A stretch of 64,000 nt of DNA from Thermoprotei archaeon (GTDB lineage: Archaea > Thermoproteota > Thermoprotei > Gearchaeales > WAQG01): the NCBI GenBank assembly GCA_038881895.1, contig JAVZOV010000003.1, forward strand, positions 192,492 to 256,491. The letters are read 5' to 3'. Positions 32,089 to 42,312 of the stretch are shown one piece after another. Positions within the stretch are counted from its first letter, which is position 1. The number at the start of each line of letters is the position of its first letter. The translations under genes were made by a program, and so were the position numbers. Under the pieces are notes generated by a model. That model searched no databases and had not been told where the DNA came from. It worked only from the letters and a program-made list of their open reading frames with translations.

Positions 32089-33257
32089 AGAAATGCGACA
32101 AGAAAGCCTAGAACTTCAGTTCTGGGATGAATCGTCGATAGGCTTAAATAAGTGCTTAAACAATGTTTTCTTGAGCGAGTCGCTCATGAAGGCTAAGAAA
32201 ACCATTAAGGCAAAGATTCTTGAACTACGCAAAGGCAAGGAAGAGCTTTTGAGGCGTGAATACGAGAATTGGCAACGCTATTTGCATGGAGACAAGTCTG
32301 TTCCACTTTATTCCGCTACAAAGCAACAGGCTGACAGACTTCTAAAGAGGCTTGGAAATGTTAAGCCTAACAAGGAATACCCGCTAATCCTTAGAAGGGA
32401 CGTGTACAGAGCAGACACCAAGCTGACGCCTTATTGGCTCAAGATTCCAATTTATGGGGTTAGAGGCGGAATAAACGTCCCCATAAAGACCCATGAACCA
32501 ATAACTGATGACATGATTTGCAGAGAGGCAAAAATCGTAAAGAAAGGTAATGAGTGGTTCGTCCACATAACTGTTGAAAAAGAAGTCGAGGAGAGAAACC
32601 CTAAATCAGCTCTAGCAGTTGATATGGGGATACGCTGGATAGCCGCAACAGTCAACTCAACCAATCCAAAACCGAAGTTCTATGGGAGGGAGCTTAGGAG
32701 GGTTAAGGGACACTTCTTCTGGCTTAGGAGAACCCTAGCCCTGAAGAAGTCATATAAAGCGATAAAGAAGATTGGGCGTAAAGAGAGAAGGGTTGTTAAC
32801 GATATCCTGCATAAGATTAGCAGAGCCATAGTCAACGAAGCTTTGGCGAACGACTCCATGATAGTTCTTGGAAAACTCAAGGGCATAAGACGAAACGGCA
32901 GAGGTAGAGCTTTCAAAAGAAAGCTCAACAACGGATTCCCATACCATAGGCTAAGCCAATTCATAGAGTATAAGGCGAGATGGCGCGGAATCAAAGTTGT
33001 TAAGATAAGCGAAAGAAACACTTCAAAACTGTGCCATAAATGTGGTCACAGGGGGCTTCGAGTCGGAGGCCTCTTCAAATGCCAAAACTGCGGAATCCAA
33101 TGCAACGCAGACTATAATGGAGCAACGAACATCCTTAAGCGGGCTATGGGCTATACGTCCATGGCAGGGGCTGCTTTGACACAGCCCGAACTCGGTACGA
33201 TGAAGGCTTGAGCCTGAGGAACCGAGAATCTCCCGGCTTCAGCCGTGGAGAATGTCA
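32081..33257 (+). mobile_element. TnpB element, intact parent of the PATE family
   Basis: Left end TTTATTACAGAAATGCGACA with a TATA-like CTTAAATAA at 32142-32150 and a hairpin GAGCGAGTCGCTC; right end CGGCTTCAGCCGTGGAGAAT. It carries only tnpB. Deleted or decayed relatives are at 52-300, 21027-21322, 24485-24675 and 63452-63472. The right end after tnpB contains CCCGGCTTCAGCCG, a foldable scaffold expected at the 3' part of the guide RNA. Confidence 0.8.
32186..33211 (+). CDS. tnpB: TnpB protein with altered RuvC-II motif
   Basis: 341 residues from ATG 32186, which lies about 40 bases after the TATA-like CTTAAATAA; an in-frame ATG at 32093 would add 31 residues read from the element's end sequence. 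RuvC-I Asp is in SALAVDMGIRWIA, zinc finger CHKCGH...CQNCG, RuvC-III Asp in CNADYNGATNIL. The RuvC-II position usually reads V-L-E-D-L-K-G but here it is SMIVLGKLKGIRR, so the catalytic Glu is missing. Either the active site is rearranged, as reported for some TnpB branches, or the protein is nuclease-dead. Confidence 0.85.
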   Translation: MKAKKTIKAKILELRKGKEELLRREYENWQRYLHGDKSVPLYSATKQQADRLLKRLGNVKPNKEYPLILRRDVYRADTKLTPYWLKIPIYGVRGGINVPIKTHEPITDDMICREAKIVKKGNEWFVHITVEKEVEERNPKSALAVDMGIRWIAATVNSTNPKPKFYGRELRRVKGHFFWLRRTLALKKSYKAIKKIGRKERRVVNDILHKISRAIVNEALANDSMIVLGKLKGIRRNGRGRAFKRKLNNGFPYHRLSQFIEYKARWRGIKVVKISERNTSKLCHKCGHRGLRVGGLFKCQNCGIQCNADYNGATNILKRAMGYTSMAGAALTQPELGTMKA

Positions 33258-34761: not shown

Positions 34762-34995
34762 AGATAAATGGGCAAAGTTTAAACATGATGTTAACTCACT
34801 AAATTTGGAATGTTCCCGATGTGGATGGAATAACATCTGAACTAGAGCGAAAACATAGCTCGTAAGATGGTGAGTCCTATGGGATGGTGAAGTTGTGAGC
34901 ACCTCAAACCAGGTGACTGGGAGTGCAAAAGCTCCGGGCGAACGCTGGGAACTCCTAACTTTAGTTGAGTCGTGGAGTAGCTCACATGATGGTAA
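34762..34995 (+). mobile_element. tnpB 3' remnant of a separate TnpB lineage
   Basis: Bases 34793-34840 encode VNSLNLECSRCGWNNI then a stop, the start of the tnpB zinc finger. After it come ACCTCAAACCAGGTGACTGG and CTTTAGTTGAGTCGTGGAGTAGCTCAC, typical of the right-end structure of archaeal IS200/605 tnpB elements. The rest of tnpB is lost. Different sequence from the other elements here. The remaining bases of 34461-35043 are AT-rich without a gene. Confidence 0.55.
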
Positions 34996-35043
34996 TGAGG
35001 CGAAAAATTTATCATAGTCTTTTTACTAGTTAGGGATGCTGGG

Positions 35044-35179
35044 CCCGGGGTAGCTAAGCCTGGTATAGCTTCCGGCTGTAGGTATCAGCCACCTAGACAA
35101 CTGGGGTCGCGAGCCTGAGAATGAGTCTAGGTCAGCAGGTACCGGAAGGCCGTGGGTTCAAATCCCACCCCCGGGACCA
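35044..35179 (+). tRNA. tRNA-Tyr (GUA) with a 59-base intron
   Basis: Acceptor CCCGGGG/CCCCGGG with C1-G72, the archaeal tRNA-Tyr identity pair, discriminator A and encoded CCA. D arm GCTA...TAGC, anticodon loop CTGTAG|A giving GUA, T arm GTGGG-TTCAAAT-CCCAC. The intron occupies 35082-35140 at position 37/38; BHB central helix CTGT/GCAG with bulges AGG and GTA. Inside the intron ACCTAGA pairs with TCTAGGT. Confidence 0.93.
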
Positions 35180-35272
35180 GTCTTCTTGTGATTGTGATTA
35201 TTCAAAGGAAATGTGATTACGACGTTATCACAATAATCATGGATTGCTCTGATGTATTATAATGTTATTTTT

Positions 35273-35297
35273 TACCCCCTTATTTCCTCTGGAATGT
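35273..35297 (-). promoter_or_regulatory. ORB-like sequence
   Basis: On the minus strand: ATTCCAGAGGAAATAAGGGG followed by GTAAA. It shares the TTCCAG-GGAAA dyad and the following G-run with the two ORB sequences at 40.6-40.9 kb, with one mismatch in the dyad. Single copy; could bind Orc1/Cdc6 or be chance. Confidence 0.4.
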
Positions 35298-35324
35298 GAT
35301 TTTTAAAGTATGTGATTAGTCACA

Positions 35325-35867
35325 TTACTGTTTTTCTAGCAGTTTTTTCTTTATCTCTTCTGGTACTCTATACGTGAAAGGCATTTTTGTTTCATCTCTT
35401 ATTAAGAGACCTTTATCAACCATTCTCTTCATCGTTCTTGCTATATGCTCTCTTGCCATTCCTAACATTTTAGCTATCCCTGTTGCTCCTTCTACACCGT
35501 ATGATGAATCTTGTAATAATAATCTTAGTATTTTCTCCTCCGTTATCGATAATCCTAACAGCTCTCTTTCTTTTTCAACTGCTTTTTCGGATAACATTTC
35601 ATTTAATGATAGATACTTTGATGTATAGTTTTCATACTTTCTTCTTATCCTTTGGTCTTTTGCTGATTGTTGAGTCTTTTGATAAAGTTCTTCCATCATT
35701 TCTCTCATCCGTCTTATTTCAAACCTAATTTTAGTTATGTCATCTTCTATGTACGCTAAACGTTCTTCAAGTATTCTATCTCTTCCCTTCATAGATTCTA
35801 CCAAATCTATTAAAGACTGCAAACGTGCCTCAAGTGAGCTTAATGGTATGTATGCTTTTCGTTCCAT
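35325..35867 (-). CDS. Winged-helix DNA-binding protein with N-terminal coiled coil
   Basis: 180 residues. Residues 8-75 form heptad-like repeats (ARLQSLIDLVESMKGRDRIL, EERLAYIEDDITKIRFEIRR), a likely coiled coil for oligomerisation. Residues 105-175 form a MarR/TrmB-like winged helix (TEEKILRLLLQDSSYGVEGA, GIAKMLGMAREHIARTMKRM). It is surrounded by GTGAT repeats, so autoregulation or another role at these sites is likely. No family name can be given with confidence. Confidence 0.65.
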   Translation of the reverse strand: MERKAYIPLSSLEARLQSLIDLVESMKGRDRILEERLAYIEDDITKIRFEIRRMREMMEELYQKTQQSAKDQRIRRKYENYTSKYLSLNEMLSEKAVEKERELLGLSITEEKILRLLLQDSSYGVEGATGIAKMLGMAREHIARTMKRMVDKGLLIRDETKMPFTYRVPEEIKKKLLEKQ

Positions 35868-36292
35868 TTAACATCTACAATATTATTTGTGACATGTGAT
35901 ATATAAACTCATCTCACAATCACGGTGATTAACTATTTTTATAAAATCATGGATCATATTTTATGATATATCATAAAACAGTTTATGAAAAAAATAAAAA
36001 ACATAGGATATATAGCCAGAAATATGCAAAAATATCTAATGATATGTGTGAGATTTAATATGATAAACAATTCTTTTTTAAAGATGAAAATATTACGTGA
36101 TTAAGTCACTGAAAGTCATTTTATGATTCGTGATTTCAATGTAAAATACTTGCTTATTTTTCAGTGATTTTTCTTTATTATGATAATTGTGATAAAAGTC
36201 ACGGGCGTGGTGTGATATCTTATTAAAATCATTAGCTGTGACTAAGTTATGCGAAAAAGATCATGTGGTTTTATGGCTTACCATTGTGATTT
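35868..36292. other. Repeat-rich intergenic region upstream of the winged-helix gene
   Basis: 425 bases with no gene. It holds about a dozen of the GTGAT half-sites and, near 35943-35985, overlapping palindromes (ATCATGGATCAT, TTTATGATATATCATAAA). This is the promoter side of the winged-helix gene and the 3' side of the aminotransferase gene. Confidence 0.6.
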
Positions 36293-37654
36293 TTATAATG
36301 TTTTTTCTGTGACTCTTATGTTTTTCTCGATTATTTCAATTGCTTTCTCAGCTAGTTCTCGTGTCATAGTTAATGGTGGTGCTATTCTTAGTGTTGATTT
36401 TCCTGCCGTTATTAATGCAACACCTTGCTTCCAGCTTTGTATAATAATATTTTCAGCTTCCTTAATCCCTGGTTCTTTAGTTTTTTTATCCTTCACTATT
36501 TCTACACCTATCATAAAACCTTTTCCTCTTACATCTCCTACTATTTTACTACTTTCTTCGATTTCTTTAAAATGTTTGTAAATATAATCCCCTACTTTCT
36601 GCACATTTTCAAGGAGGTTATTTTTCTCTATATACTCAATAGTCGATAGTGATGCGACACATGATACAGGATTCCCGCCGAATGTTGATGCGTGAGATCC
36701 CTTCTCCCATGTCATGACATCTTTACTTGCTATCATTGCTCCTAAAGGTAATCCTGAGGCGATGGCTTTTGCTAATGTTATTATGTCAGGTTTAACATTC
36801 CAATGCTCTATTGCAAACCATTTACCGGTTCGTCCAAAACCTGCTTGTATTTCATCATCTATGAATAAGATCCCATATTTTTCAGCTAGTTTTTTTAATT
36901 TTTCAAAATATCCCTGAGGCGGCCAAACATAACCTCCCTCACCCTGCACCGGTTCTACTACTATGCCTGCTACTTCTTCAGGTGGTACATATTTCGAGAG
37001 AACCCATTCTTCAATATAGTCAACGCAATATAGATTACATTCTGGATATTGTAGATGAAATGGGCATCTATAACAATATGGATACGGAACCTGAACTGTT
37101 GCTGGAACGAGTGGCGAAAATCCTTTCCGTTGCACTGGCTTTGATGCCGTCAAACTCATAGCTCCATAAGTTCTTCCATGAAACGATCCTATGAACGAAA
37201 AAAGGTAAGGCCGACCAGTTTTATATCTTGCCAACTTCATTGCTGCTTCTATTGCTTCAGCTCCACTATTCGAAAAATGAACCATTTTCTCTTTACCGTT
37301 TACAGGAACGATTTTTGTTAATTTCTCTGCTAATGTTACGGCCTCTTCATAATAAAAGTCTGTGAGACTATAGTGTAAAAATTTATCAACTTGCCTTTTT
37401 ATTGCTTCAGTAACTTCTTTTGGACGTCCAACATTAAGTACTACTAATCCAGAATTAAAATCTATATACTCATTACCATCAACATCGACCACTACATTTT
37501 CTTTAACTTCCTTTACAACCAAAGGATAGAAGCGAACATAAGAACGTGAAATAACTTTACTATCACGTTCAATTATTTTTTGAGCATTTGGGCCTGGTGG
37601 TGGAACGACAATTTTAGGTAAATCGTGAGGTTTATTGATAGACTCTTCACCCAT
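36293..37654 (-). CDS. Class III aminotransferase (GABA/ornithine aminotransferase or racemase-like)
   Basis: About 453 residues, PLP enzyme of the acetylornithine/4-aminobutyrate aminotransferase family. PLP-binding region SNSGAEAIEAAMKLAR; FIGSFHGRTYGAMSLTASK; Asp in LFIDDEIQAGFGRTGKWFA; Schiff-base Lys in IITLAKAIASGLPLGAM. Cys-rich insert CYRCPFHLQYPECNLYC is shared with archaeal relatives. Pyrococcus paralogues of this type include ornithine aminotransferase and amino-acid racemases, so activity is open. GGTGG six bases before ATG at 37654 picks the start; a longer frame begins nine codons upstream. Confidence 0.9.
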   Translation of the reverse strand: MGEESINKPHDLPKIVVPPPGPNAQKIIERDSKVISRSYVRFYPLVVKEVKENVVVDVDGNEYIDFNSGLVVLNVGRPKEVTEAIKRQVDKFLHYSLTDFYYEEAVTLAEKLTKIVPVNGKEKMVHFSNSGAEAIEAAMKLARYKTGRPYLFSFIGSFHGRTYGAMSLTASKPVQRKGFSPLVPATVQVPYPYCYRCPFHLQYPECNLYCVDYIEEWVLSKYVPPEEVAGIVVEPVQGEGGYVWPPQGYFEKLKKLAEKYGILFIDDEIQAGFGRTGKWFAIEHWNVKPDIITLAKAIASGLPLGAMIASKDVMTWEKGSHASTFGGNPVSCVASLSTIEYIEKNNLLENVQKVGDYIYKHFKEIEESSKIVGDVRGKGFMIGVEIVKDKKTKEPGIKEAENIIIQSWKQGVALITAGKSTLRIAPPLTMTRELAEKAIEIIEKNIRVTEKTL

Positions 37655-37904
37655 AGAATACCACCGAAATATTAAGATCACGCACCTTTATATATATTTC
37701 TAACTTCGTACTATTTTAACAAATTTCTTCATAACTTCGAAATATAACTATCATCAATCAAAAATATAACCACTCGTTTATATAAGAAAATCGTACTCAA
37801 AATTTTCTTTCATAACGCTAACTAGATTTATTTAGAGAATTTAGATAATTTACGGATCATAAAGTTTAATAGTTTTTGCGATAAAAAATATTTTGGTGTA
37901 CAGT

Positions 37905-38396
37905 ATGAGCGTTCAATTAAAAATTGTGAAAATAGTGCCACCAGAGGGTACAAATATTATTATAGGACAAACACACTTTATTAAGACTACTGAAGACATT
38001 TATGAACTTTTCGTTACAATAACACCTCATATAAAGTTTGGATTGGCATTCTGCGAATCATCAGGCCCACGTTTAGTGAGGCGCGAAGGTAATGATCAGG
38101 AGCTTATAGAATTAGCAACGAAGTACGCTTTAGATGTTGGAGCCGGTCATGTATTTGTAATCGTAATTAAAGGTGGTTATCCCATAAATGTATTAAATGC
38201 TCTTAAAAATGTTCAAGAAGTTGTAGGACTTTATTGTGCTACCGCTAACCCGATCGAGGTAATCGTAGCCGAAACAGAACAAGGCAGAGGAGTTTTAGGC
38301 GTCATAGACGGAGGGTCTCCACTAGGTGTTGAGAAAGAAGATGACATTAAGGCAAGACGCGATTTTCTAAGAAAAATAGGATACAAACTTAGATAA
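37905..38396 (+). CDS. Adenosine-specific kinase (DUF355)
   Basis: About 163 residues. The conserved blocks FGLAFCESSGPRLVRREGND, DVGAGHVFVIVIKGGYPINVL and VYCATANP-like GLYCATANPIEVIVAETEQG are those of the archaeal adenosine-specific kinase first solved from Pyrobaculum. Consistent with purine salvage alongside the nucleoside transporter of this window (inference). GGTG before ATG 37905; ORF could begin four codons earlier. Its 3' end overlaps the convergent DUF2070 gene by eight bases. Confidence 0.9.
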   Translation: MSVQLKIVKIVPPEGTNIIIGQTHFIKTTEDIYELFVTITPHIKFGLAFCESSGPRLVRREGNDQELIELATKYALDVGAGHVFVIVIKGGYPINVLNALKNVQEVVGLYCATANPIEVIVAETEQGRGVLGVIDGGSPLGVEKEDDIKARRDFLRKIGYKLR

Positions 38397-40134
38397 CATT
38401 AAATATTACAGTGATGAACGCAGCAATCATGAAAATAATAATAGGATATAATTCACCTTTAGGAACATATTTTTTCGCCATCTCATCTAATTTATAAAGA
38501 TTTTTCCCTAAAATCCTCAAATCTGTTATTGTAACATTAATATCACTTACTAATATTCTCTCCTTAAGATCTGCATTTTTCAGCCTATCCAGTATGATTT
38601 TTATTATTTCCGAAATATTACCATTTTCACCTAGCATGCTATAACCCTTTCCTCCTGGAACCAAAGCTACTACCGAATGTGTATCGCTTGTACACACTTC
38701 CCCATCATAACCTATTTTTAATGTTTCATTTATTATCTGTTCTCTTAATCCAACAATCATATTATTGGAATCAAAAAGCATTATGTAAAATGGTTTTTCA
38801 TTTTTAGGCTCCAAAACCATTATAGCAATACCACCCTCGCCATATCCTTCATGAGGTTTTCCTGGAAACGCTGTCTTTACAAGACTTATTTTTCCCTGTC
38901 TCTTTTCCAATTGTTTAAGCTGCATTAACGCTTTTTCTATTGCTTTTATTGAAGATCTACCGGCAATATCCTTCGAGAGTATTTCTGATCTGTCATTTGA
39001 GAGAGCGTTATGAGCATCTATTATTATTGGTTCCTTTAAACCAAGACTTTGGGAAAGTTTTTTTACTGGGTTTACAATATTTTCTGGTAAATCCTCCATC
39101 GGTAATGGTGATGCAGTCACAGTTATTATTGGAATATCATTAATTAAGAATGCCTTGACTTTTATCTGATCCTCACTAACATCTATAAGCCTTGTTAAGT
39201 ATACTTCATCAGTTTGTGATTGAGAGTTAATTATCGCCGTTTTTATCAATGATATTACTCTTTCCCTATCGTCATTAAGCACTAGATCAGATTCATGATT
39301 TGATGGAACATGGAATGGCATTGCAACAACACTCATCTCATCCCACATTTTTTTCATTATCTCAGAAGGTAAATTCGAACTACCCATATGCATTATAGGA
39401 CCTGGATGTATCGGTATTGATATTAATACCCCAATCGGTTTGCTCTCATTATAAAACACTAACAACCGCGCAATGTAATCTGCGGATGTAGATATGCTAG
39501 AAAACACTTGTTCAAGAGCTGTAGAATCCTTATTTGACCAAAGCCTCAGAAATGCACGAAATAGAGATATTGGACCAAGCCCAAACTTCCTCTTACCACT
39601 AATTTCAATGTACGCCATATAAACAAATCCTACCGCAGTTAAAATAAACGGAAGGAAAAAATCAATCAAAGAATTCTTCAAATTCTTTAATACAACGTCA
39701 TTAAAGTATAACATAGAAGACGATAACGGAAGCAGACACATAATACTCATTAACCCACGTTTAAAACTCTTTGTAATAACAGGTAGAGAATTAAAAACAA
39801 ACGACAATATAGTAGCCGATAATATTGCCCCTAATATTCCAGAAATTATATCTTTTAAAAGAAGATGCAAAAGACCTGCAAAAATTATCATAATATATAT
39901 TCCCAAACCTCTTCTCTTTGTAATATATTGATCTATCCTTCCATAAAGTAATAACACCGCTATACTCATTATGATTATTACATTAACTATCATAAATCCA
40001 ACATTAAAAAAGATCACAGGAATTACTACATACAACAACGATAACACAAATGCCATCATTAGTAACAATCTTAAATTAGGTAATGACCATAACTTAGAAT
40101 AATGAAGTGGAATAGATAAACCATCATCACTCAT
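38389..40134 (-). CDS. DUF2070 family archaeal membrane protein
   Basis: 581 residues. About six N-terminal membrane helices (residues 18-185), a large soluble domain (about 200-545) with HPGPIMHMGSSNLPSEI and DAHNALSNDRSEI motifs, and a C-terminal helix (YPIIIFMIAAFITVIFNVI). Metal-binding-like His/Asp residues suggest an enzyme, but function is unknown. Sec61-beta lies just upstream on the same strand, ten bases away, a pairing common in archaea. Confidence 0.85.
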   Translation of the reverse strand: MSDDGLSIPLHYSKLWSLPNLRLLLMMAFVLSLLYVVIPVIFFNVGFMIVNVIIIMSIAVLLLYGRIDQYITKRRGLGIYIMIIFAGLLHLLLKDIISGILGAILSATILSFVFNSLPVITKSFKRGLMSIMCLLPLSSSMLYFNDVVLKNLKNSLIDFFLPFILTAVGFVYMAYIEISGKRKFGLGPISLFRAFLRLWSNKDSTALEQVFSSISTSADYIARLLVFYNESKPIGVLISIPIHPGPIMHMGSSNLPSEIMKKMWDEMSVVAMPFHVPSNHESDLVLNDDRERVISLIKTAIINSQSQTDEVYLTRLIDVSEDQIKVKAFLINDIPIITVTASPLPMEDLPENIVNPVKKLSQSLGLKEPIIIDAHNALSNDRSEILSKDIAGRSSIKAIEKALMQLKQLEKRQGKISLVKTAFPGKPHEGYGEGGIAIMVLEPKNEKPFYIMLFDSNNMIVGLREQIINETLKIGYDGEVCTSDTHSVVALVPGGKGYSMLGENGNISEIIKIILDRLKNADLKERILVSDINVTITDLRILGKNLYKLDEMAKKYVPKGELYPIIIFMIAAFITVIFNVI

Positions 40135-40628: not shown

Positions 40629-40867
40629 CTCCCACACCCCTTTATTTCCACTGGAAATAATATAGCATTATCCTGTTATTTTTCTACTAAAATATTTTTT
40701 AGTAAAATACATGAATATCTGTACCATAAAGCATTTAATATTTTAAAGAAATAACAAATGGGGTATTTTATTCTTAAGGAAATATGTTATTCTTAAACAA
40801 AAAGTTAATATCATGAAGAAACAGCATTTTGCTCACTAGTTCCAGTGGAAACAGAGGGGTGTGGGGG
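40629..40867. other. Probable replication origin: inverted ORB pair around AT-rich DNA
   Basis: Plus strand 40840-40866 reads TTCCAGTGGAAACAGAGGGG then TGTGGGG; the reverse complement of 40629-40656 reads TTCCAGTGGAAATAAAGGGG then TGTGGGAG. These agree with the archaeal origin recognition box: a dyad followed by a G-string. They face each other across about 180 bases of DNA with very few G/C, a suitable unwinding element. Genes on the left are mostly leftward (Sec61-beta, DUF2070, aminotransferase) and FAD synthase on the right is rightward. No orc1/cdc6 gene is in the window. The inverted copies also could be read as a MITE with terminal repeats, but the ORB match is specific. Bases 40330-40628 are AT-rich with no gene. 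Confidence 0.7.
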
Positions 40868-41202
40868 TTCTGAGTTAAGTAGAGATTCATAGTGTTTTAT
40901 CACCTCTACTCAACTCTTCCCTCTCGATTAGCTCATCGAGGGCTTTCGGGGTAAACCCGACATCCCCACATCCGAAGGTCAACCCCCAGCCCACCCATCC
41001 CCATAGGAAGTCATGCTTCCAGAGCAGAGGGGACATTAAAACGTATGAGCAACCTCTATTTAAACCTATCTGCTCTGAAAATACTGACAAAGGCAGCTAA
41101 ACGCTGCCTCTTAGCCTCTTTGAGAGTGCAAAGCTTCTCCATCAAGAAGATATTATGGCTTATCTCTATTTAAGTCTATCTATTTTGAAACTGTTTTTTA
41201 AG
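40865..41202 (-). mobile_element. IS607-derived mini-element (copy B)
   Basis: Reverse-complement copy of the element at 16752-17081, from CTTAAAAAACAGTTTCAAAA (minus strand, ending 41202) to TCTACTTAACTCAGAACCC (40865). It abuts the G-run of the right ORB, in keeping with a GG target. The internal 67-codon frame is the same end-to-end fusion seen in copy A. Bases 41203-41402 downstream are AT-rich and carry the promoter of the FAD synthase gene. Confidence 0.8.
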
Positions 41203-41940: not shown

Positions 41941-42136
41941 GACAGCAGCTCCCAAATAGATAGATTTTTATAGATGTTTAGTGTATTAAAGAATGCATGA
42001 ACGTGCCCGATATGTGGTGGTAAATTGGCACCGAATGGGCACGTCTAAACATGCTCAGGATGAGGGGAGCCCCGTTGACCCAGAAAGCCCTCTATGAAAT
42101 TGAGAGGGAAGGGACGAAAGTCCATGAATCCCATAA
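41941..42136 (+). mobile_element. Deleted derivative of the 5.9-7.2 kb TnpB element
   Basis: Left end CAAATAGATAGATTTTTATAGATGTTTAGTG equals, over blocks of under 20 bases each, the left end of the element at 7.1 kb. It then jumps into the tnpB tail: CPICGGKLAPNGH, then LNMLRMRGAPLTQKALYE, and ends GGGACGAAAGTCCATGAATC. The tnpB body has been deleted; no complete protein. Confidence 0.75.
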
Positions 42137-42312
42137 CGGTTCTCTTTTTAGGTTGTTCATTGTTTTGTAAATTGCTTTCACTTCTCTCACTTTTGTCATT
42201 GCTGGATGTGAAATACTTATCTTGCTTCTCTTGTCAGCTGTAGATCGCTTAATCTTGAAACCATAGTCTCTAATTAAGAATGAGTATGGGTTGTAACTGA
42301 TGAAAAATGGAT
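42137..42312 (-). pseudogene. Unrecognised coding remnant beside the mini-TnpB element
   Basis: On the minus strand about 55 codons stay open from a TAA near 42325: FFISYNPYSFLIRDYGFKIK, then STADKRSKISISHPAMTKVR, then EVKAIYKTMNNLKREP, running straight into the transposon end at 42136. The composition looks like a genuine protein (basic, alpha/beta) but no start codon is obvious and I cannot name a family. It is probably the surviving piece of a gene broken by the insertion. Confidence 0.3.

Follow-up and report, generated by a model that had tools for sequence, protein, structure and literature searches.

A GTGAY half-site array around a coiled-coil winged-helix gene at a putative ancestral origin position in a Geoarchaeota-like archaeon

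Introduction

What purpose would a dense array of short repeats serve around a single winged-helix (wHTH) gene on an archaeal chromosome? Archaeal origins are regarded as mosaics of replicator-initiator pairs; few such pairs without Orc1 have been described (WhiP/oriC3), and the centromeres of most archaea have yet to be identified. Here, we report the analysis of such an array in a 64,000-nucleotide stretch (the window; contig C3, positions 192492-256491) of the genome of a Thermoprotei archaeon (1.75 Mb in 7 contigs). A preliminary description, made from the letters alone, had offered strong autoregulation, the home locus of a global regulator, a partition-type site, or a secondary origin with its own initiator as possible explanations. 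For comparison, we used the sole same-family genome (G001; WAQG01000002, 86% complete), two genomes of the same order in another family (G002 and G003), and two more distant genomes of the same class (G005 and G008). The window is Geoarchaeota-like, because the only same-family genome is a Candidatus Geoarchaeota MAG.

Results

Half-sites of the form GTGAT or GTGAC (GTGAY, both strands counted) number 20 on the flanks of the wHTH gene (35325-35867, minus strand), with 7 in the left flank (35180-35324, 145 bp), 13 in the right flank (35868-36292, 425 bp), and none in the gene body. Dinucleotide shuffles gave expected counts of 0.93 (left) and 1.70 (right), and the observed count was matched by 0 of 2000 shuffles for each flank separately, so the dense array reported in the preliminary description is borne out. 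The background, taken from a 464-kb sample of the genome and from genome-wide pattern searches, was 2.7 sites per kb in the window and 2.9 per kb across the 464 kb. Same-strand triples (gaps of ≤30) occur 22 times genome-wide, 6 of them inside the 1.1 kb of the array; clusters of 4 sites per 100 bp have 11 starts in the array versus 5 in the remaining ~400 kb of the sample, and the 3 of those 5 that were inspected all lie within open reading frames (ORFs). The richest 450-bp window outside the array in the 464-kb sample holds 8 sites, apparently within a protease-coding stretch. Of the clusters inspected elsewhere in the sample, four fall within ORFs; by a reading of its sequence, the fifth (L036, 19380-19950) seems to encode a serine protease that runs off the sequence end. 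The excess over other intergenic DNA, on which the preliminary description had staked its claim, holds in that no second intergenic array equal to this one was found in the 464 kb sampled. This absence, together with the near absence of TGTGA-N-TCACA pairs in 400 kb of the sample, gives no support to the home locus of a global regulator.

The base after GTGA in 22 array cores is T in 15, C in 5, G in 2, and A in none, unlike the background, where A is as frequent as T. A T precedes 15 of the 22 cores, the second position after the core is A or T in all 22, and the half-site is best written tGTGAYTW. Inverted GTGA-TCAC pairs have spacers of 4, 5, 6, 11, and 14.

Three groups of sites can be told apart (35188-35324, 35889-35929, and 36097-36290), in a map that begins with an intron-containing tRNA gene (35044-35176, plus strand; Rfam RF00005, 54.5 bits), probably for tyrosine by a reading of its loop, which borders the array. 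The left cluster (7 sites, with the count and shuffles given above) stands where this tRNA gene (plus) and the wHTH gene (minus) converge with their 3′ ends, with no gene start nearby, and therefore regulates no promoter; within it, an origin recognition box (ORB), TTCCAGAGGAAATAAGGGGGT (35274-35294, minus strand), directly abuts a TGTGAT half-site at 35295. The promoter-proximal group of 4 sites is set around a TATA-box-like sequence of the wHTH gene (TTTATATA; 35900-35907, minus strand), with the sites at 35889 and 35896 downstream, on the side between box and start codon, and those at 35919 and 35925 upstream. It is followed by a GTGAY-free gap of 167 bp and 81% AT (35930-36096), which is a candidate unwinding element, and by the distal group of 9 sites, 230-420 bp upstream of the wHTH gene and reaching the end of a class-III aminotransferase gene (36293-37681, minus strand; NF004426 equivalog). 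This gene serves as the syntenic anchor of the origin, and beyond it, domain searches and synteny identified an adenosine-specific kinase gene (37893-38396, plus strand) and a DUF2070 membrane protein gene (38389-40134, minus strand) as conserved neighbors. The window also contains an intact TnpB (IS605 OrfB) gene at 32093-33211 and, at 34780-35000 and 41980-42150, short stretches that resemble remnants of the TnpB C-terminal region.

ORBs were sought in the whole 1.75-Mb genome with the pattern TTCCANNGGAAANNAAGGGGG (≤3 mismatches allowed). Only three matches, with a dyad plus G-run at 1-2 mismatches each, were obtained, all within 5.6 kb of the window, a proximity that cannot reasonably be due to chance. 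The reversed pattern, used as a control, gave 1 chance match genome-wide, so a lone ORB at 2 mismatches is not proof; the ORB-like sequence noted earlier in the array is nonetheless genuine by consensus and one of the three. The other two, TTCCAGTGGAAATAAAGGGGT (40636-40656, minus strand) and TTCCAGTGGAAACAGAGGGGT (40840-40860, plus strand), form an inverted pair around 183 bp of 78% AT (40657-40839), which is a candidate for the unwinding element in an Orc1-type origin of the ordinary kind; the array has one ORB only, and the 1-kb region around the pair has 1 GTGAY site. From its sequence, the region at 40636-40860, between the Sec61-beta gene and a cytidylyltransferase-like gene, is probably an Orc1-type origin whose position is not shared with relatives. 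A G+C-rich noncoding stretch with hairpin-like repeats (40880-41130), without an Rfam match at the gathering threshold, adjoins the pair.

No intact orc1/cdc6 gene lies near the array; intact copies are on contigs C1 and C2, and a broken copy is on C3, about 80 kb past the ORB pair. The broken copy (G000:C3:313166-313696; L007) has two in-frame stops and stands near what seem to be restriction-enzyme genes, and the intact copy in G000:C1:50000-55000 (L212) adjoins apparent replication factor C genes, with no ORB found there by the pattern. GC skew has only a broad extremum at the locus, with a sign opposite to the bacterial rule.

Both G002 and G003 carry an inverted ORB pair beyond the end of the orthologous aminotransferase gene, at distances of 28-29 and 102-127 bp, and that gene has the adenosine kinase and DUF2070 genes next to it as in the window; in G005 and G008, the ORBs are on the same side of DUF2070, so that the position is conserved in relatives. 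Since the ORB pair of G002 and G003 stands beside the same aminotransferase gene, we place the array and its single ORB at the inherited origin position. On this synteny, the array would stand where the ancestral origin stood, and it would be the ORB pair (40.6-40.9 kb, beyond Sec61-beta) that is displaced. In G001, the corresponding interval upstream of Sec61-beta is too small for an ORB pair, and the 232 bp between the aminotransferase gene and the contig end (7935) hold 8 GTGAY sites (0 of 2000 shuffles; G+C content of the contig, 52%). The array thus has a counterpart in the same family, conservation in relatives having been a point raised in the preliminary description. A comparable excess after the aminotransferase gene was found at none of about 35 other loci examined, and the array is therefore a family-level feature.

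A different winged-helix protein of ~130 amino acids is conserved beside ORBs in three families of the class (L092:10544-10954, L093:10626-11030, and L094:8525-8917) and occurs also in G011 and G036; it is possibly a general origin-associated factor. This small protein (A2) was considered as a homologue of the 180-amino-acid protein of the array and rejected, as it is absent from the window's whole order.

The 180-amino-acid protein has a predicted N-terminal coiled coil (AlphaFold; helices 9-67 and 72-104) and a C-terminal winged helix. Residues 104-167 match Pfam TrmB above the cutoff (3.1e-6; 27.4 bits versus 25.6) and HTH_Crp_2 just below it (1e-5; 25.8 bits versus 27), NCBIfam returned weak matches to archaeal Sta1 and Lrs14, and the TrmB-type domain is C-terminal, its usual place being N-terminal. 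No cyclic-nucleotide-binding domain was found at the N terminus by Pfam, where the coiled coil is predicted instead. Escherichia coli CRP recognizes the half-site TGTGA. Aligned with CRP, the recognition helix AREHIAR is identical at RE and R, thereby keeping the Arg-Glu-x-x-x-Arg triad (score reached by 0 of 1000 shuffles), a likeness confined to this one helix, TrmB being the best Pfam match of the protein. In CRP, Arg180, Glu181, and Arg185 make the base-specific contacts (PMC12531629), and the 180-amino-acid protein is predicted to read TGTGAY half-sites through its CRP-like helix.

With a pLDDT of 63, the AlphaFold model of the whole protein was poor, and the coiled coils that it matched in the PDB are meaningless. 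A model of the C-terminal 81 residues (pLDDT, 82.5) gave no significant match with Foldseek and VIA-align, because its HTH helices were merged; AspA was among the weak Foldseek matches (E, 0.7-1.7), on a par with MarR and RosR, and the absence of the CRP family from the matches listed decides nothing with such a model. The wHTH gene is single copy in its own genome. Close homologues were sought first in 60 and later in 81 genomes of the class, with only weak partial wHTH or coiled-coil matches; none was found in GTDB contigs, viral contigs, plasmids, phages, or PDB sequences, and scans of Pfam, NCBIfam, and PDB returned no WhiP-type family. None was found in G001 either, a genome 86% complete in which the contig ends inside the array.

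Discussion

We tentatively favor an origin-embedded GTGAY array that is bound by its own dedicated wHTH protein with a CRP-like helix and that helps to open or control a chromosomal origin. The protein would dimerize or form higher oligomers by means of its coiled coil and would bind TGTGAY half-sites with its Arg-Glu-x-x-x-Arg helix. Variably spaced and oriented half-sites on either side of the 81% AT segment, beside the ORB, would then let a large nucleoprotein complex form, which together with Orc1 may open or control the origin, much as proposed for WhiP at Sulfolobus oriC3. The same complex would repress the wHTH gene's own promoter, self-repression being a by-product. In favor are the significance and uniqueness of the array, the ORB trio, the synteny of relatives, the G001 counterpart, the CRP-like helix, the AT-rich gap, and a left cluster with no promoter to regulate. 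Against it, the complete ORB pair 5 kb off could be the working origin without the array, no homologue was found in G001, no intact orc1/cdc6 gene is near, and GC skew has only a broad extremum; the CRP likeness of a single helix and the chance match of the reversed ORB pattern weigh on the same side. Given that nearby complete pair, the array itself may not be the replication start site; a role at the origin is probably one of control or initiation.

Ordinary autoregulation, with the sites as operators of the wHTH promoter and the old-origin position incidental, may account for part of the array. It had been among the explanations first offered, and it is likely in part, because GTGAY sites adjoin the TATA box of the gene: 35889 and 35896 stand between box and start codon, the usual place of a repressor, the others of that group are just upstream, and no other target array was found in the sample. 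As the whole explanation, we judge it unlikely. Regulation alone is disfavored because the sites reach into a promoterless region, the 7 between the converging tRNA and wHTH genes being left unexplained, and because they recur next to the aminotransferase gene of G001, a genome that yielded no homologue; moreover, 9 sites lie 230-420 bp upstream of the start, and 20 are far more than an operator. Capture of a replicator-initiator pair (iterons with a plasmid or virus wHTH Rep protein, integrated at the tRNA gene or origin and now an idle or accessory origin) would fit an orphan gene with a repeat array, and extra archaeal origins, oriC3-whiP among them, have been proposed to stem from captured extrachromosomal elements (PMC4010727). 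We consider it quite improbable, as no homologue was found in plasmids, phages, or viral contigs, and the presence of the array in a second genus implies long retention. Duplication of the tRNA end was sought as a sign of integration and rejected, since a comparison by exact 16-mers found the tRNA 3′ end only once in the window.

A partition-type site, also named in the preliminary description, would here be an origin-proximal parS-like centromere, whose half-sites the wHTH protein would bind and bridge while an unlinked ParA-type ATPase moved the complex, as with AspA on pNOB8. So many half-sites, mixed in orientation and spacing across about 1.1 kb, are better suited to a protein that spreads or bridges than to the exact loading of a helicase, and the site is origin proximal. 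Archaea offer a precedent in AspA, a wHTH centromere protein whose spreading covers 200 bp (PMC5120986) and which is one of the weak Foldseek matches. Those matches, however, are not significant and include MarR and RosR at an equal level, and no ParA, ParB, or SegA gene is among the genes flanking the array. AspA is likewise an archaeal wHTH protein with a repeated or spread site near its own gene, but its nucleation site is a single 23-bp palindrome, and its gene stands together with those of ParB and ParA. SegB is ribbon-helix-helix-like. Its centromere sites resemble the array in being multiple and near both their own locus and origins, and differ in being dispersed and mostly intragenic and in their motif, TCTAGASTCTAGA (PMC12284271); partition of the SegB type was rejected by sequence, the motif here being GTGAY. 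Overall, a centromere seems to us rather doubtful.

If the array serves the origin, one close likeness is WhiP/oriC3 of Sulfolobales, also a wHTH gene beside a chromosomal origin (here 35325-35867, at the putative ancestral origin position) with proposed origin-specific binding. The locus here differs in its ORB, its 180-amino-acid protein of a coiled coil and one wHTH domain, and its dense GTGAY array; for oriC3, one account reports no classic ORBs (PMC4010727), and another describes ORB-like nORBs (PMC3718332). Orc1/Cdc6-ORB origins of the oriC1 type share the ORB consensus, the inverted pair around an AT-rich segment (40636-40860), and the position conserved in relatives; the locus here differs from them in having no orc1 gene alongside and, at the ancestral place, one ORB plus the array. 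The residues R-E-x-x-x-R of the recognition helix and the half-site TGTGA recur in E. coli CRP of the CRP/FNR family, but a coiled coil replaces the cyclic-nucleotide domain, and many variably spaced half-sites stand in place of CRP's one N6 palindrome.

As a history of the locus, it is possible, if less than probable, that an ORB-based origin at the ancestral site was overgrown in this family, the new replicator or centromere consisting of CRP-type TGTGAY half-sites and a dedicated coiled-coil wHTH protein, whose CRP-like reading head would have been enlisted to replicate or segregate the chromosome. The origin link put forward in the preliminary description has gained from a genuine ORB and from the ORB pair of relatives beside the same aminotransferase gene, and it is firmer than the sequence alone had shown; its qualifier "secondary" is not needed for an array at what appears to be the ancestral origin position. 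A role as initiator or in partition is a proposal. The array and gene suggest a lineage-specific device for origin control or segregation. In a lineage without genetics, the locus offers a compact, testable pair of protein and array at a conserved origin position, the CRP-like helix gives a specific residue-to-base prediction, and the whole is a place to study how origins change hands in evolution.
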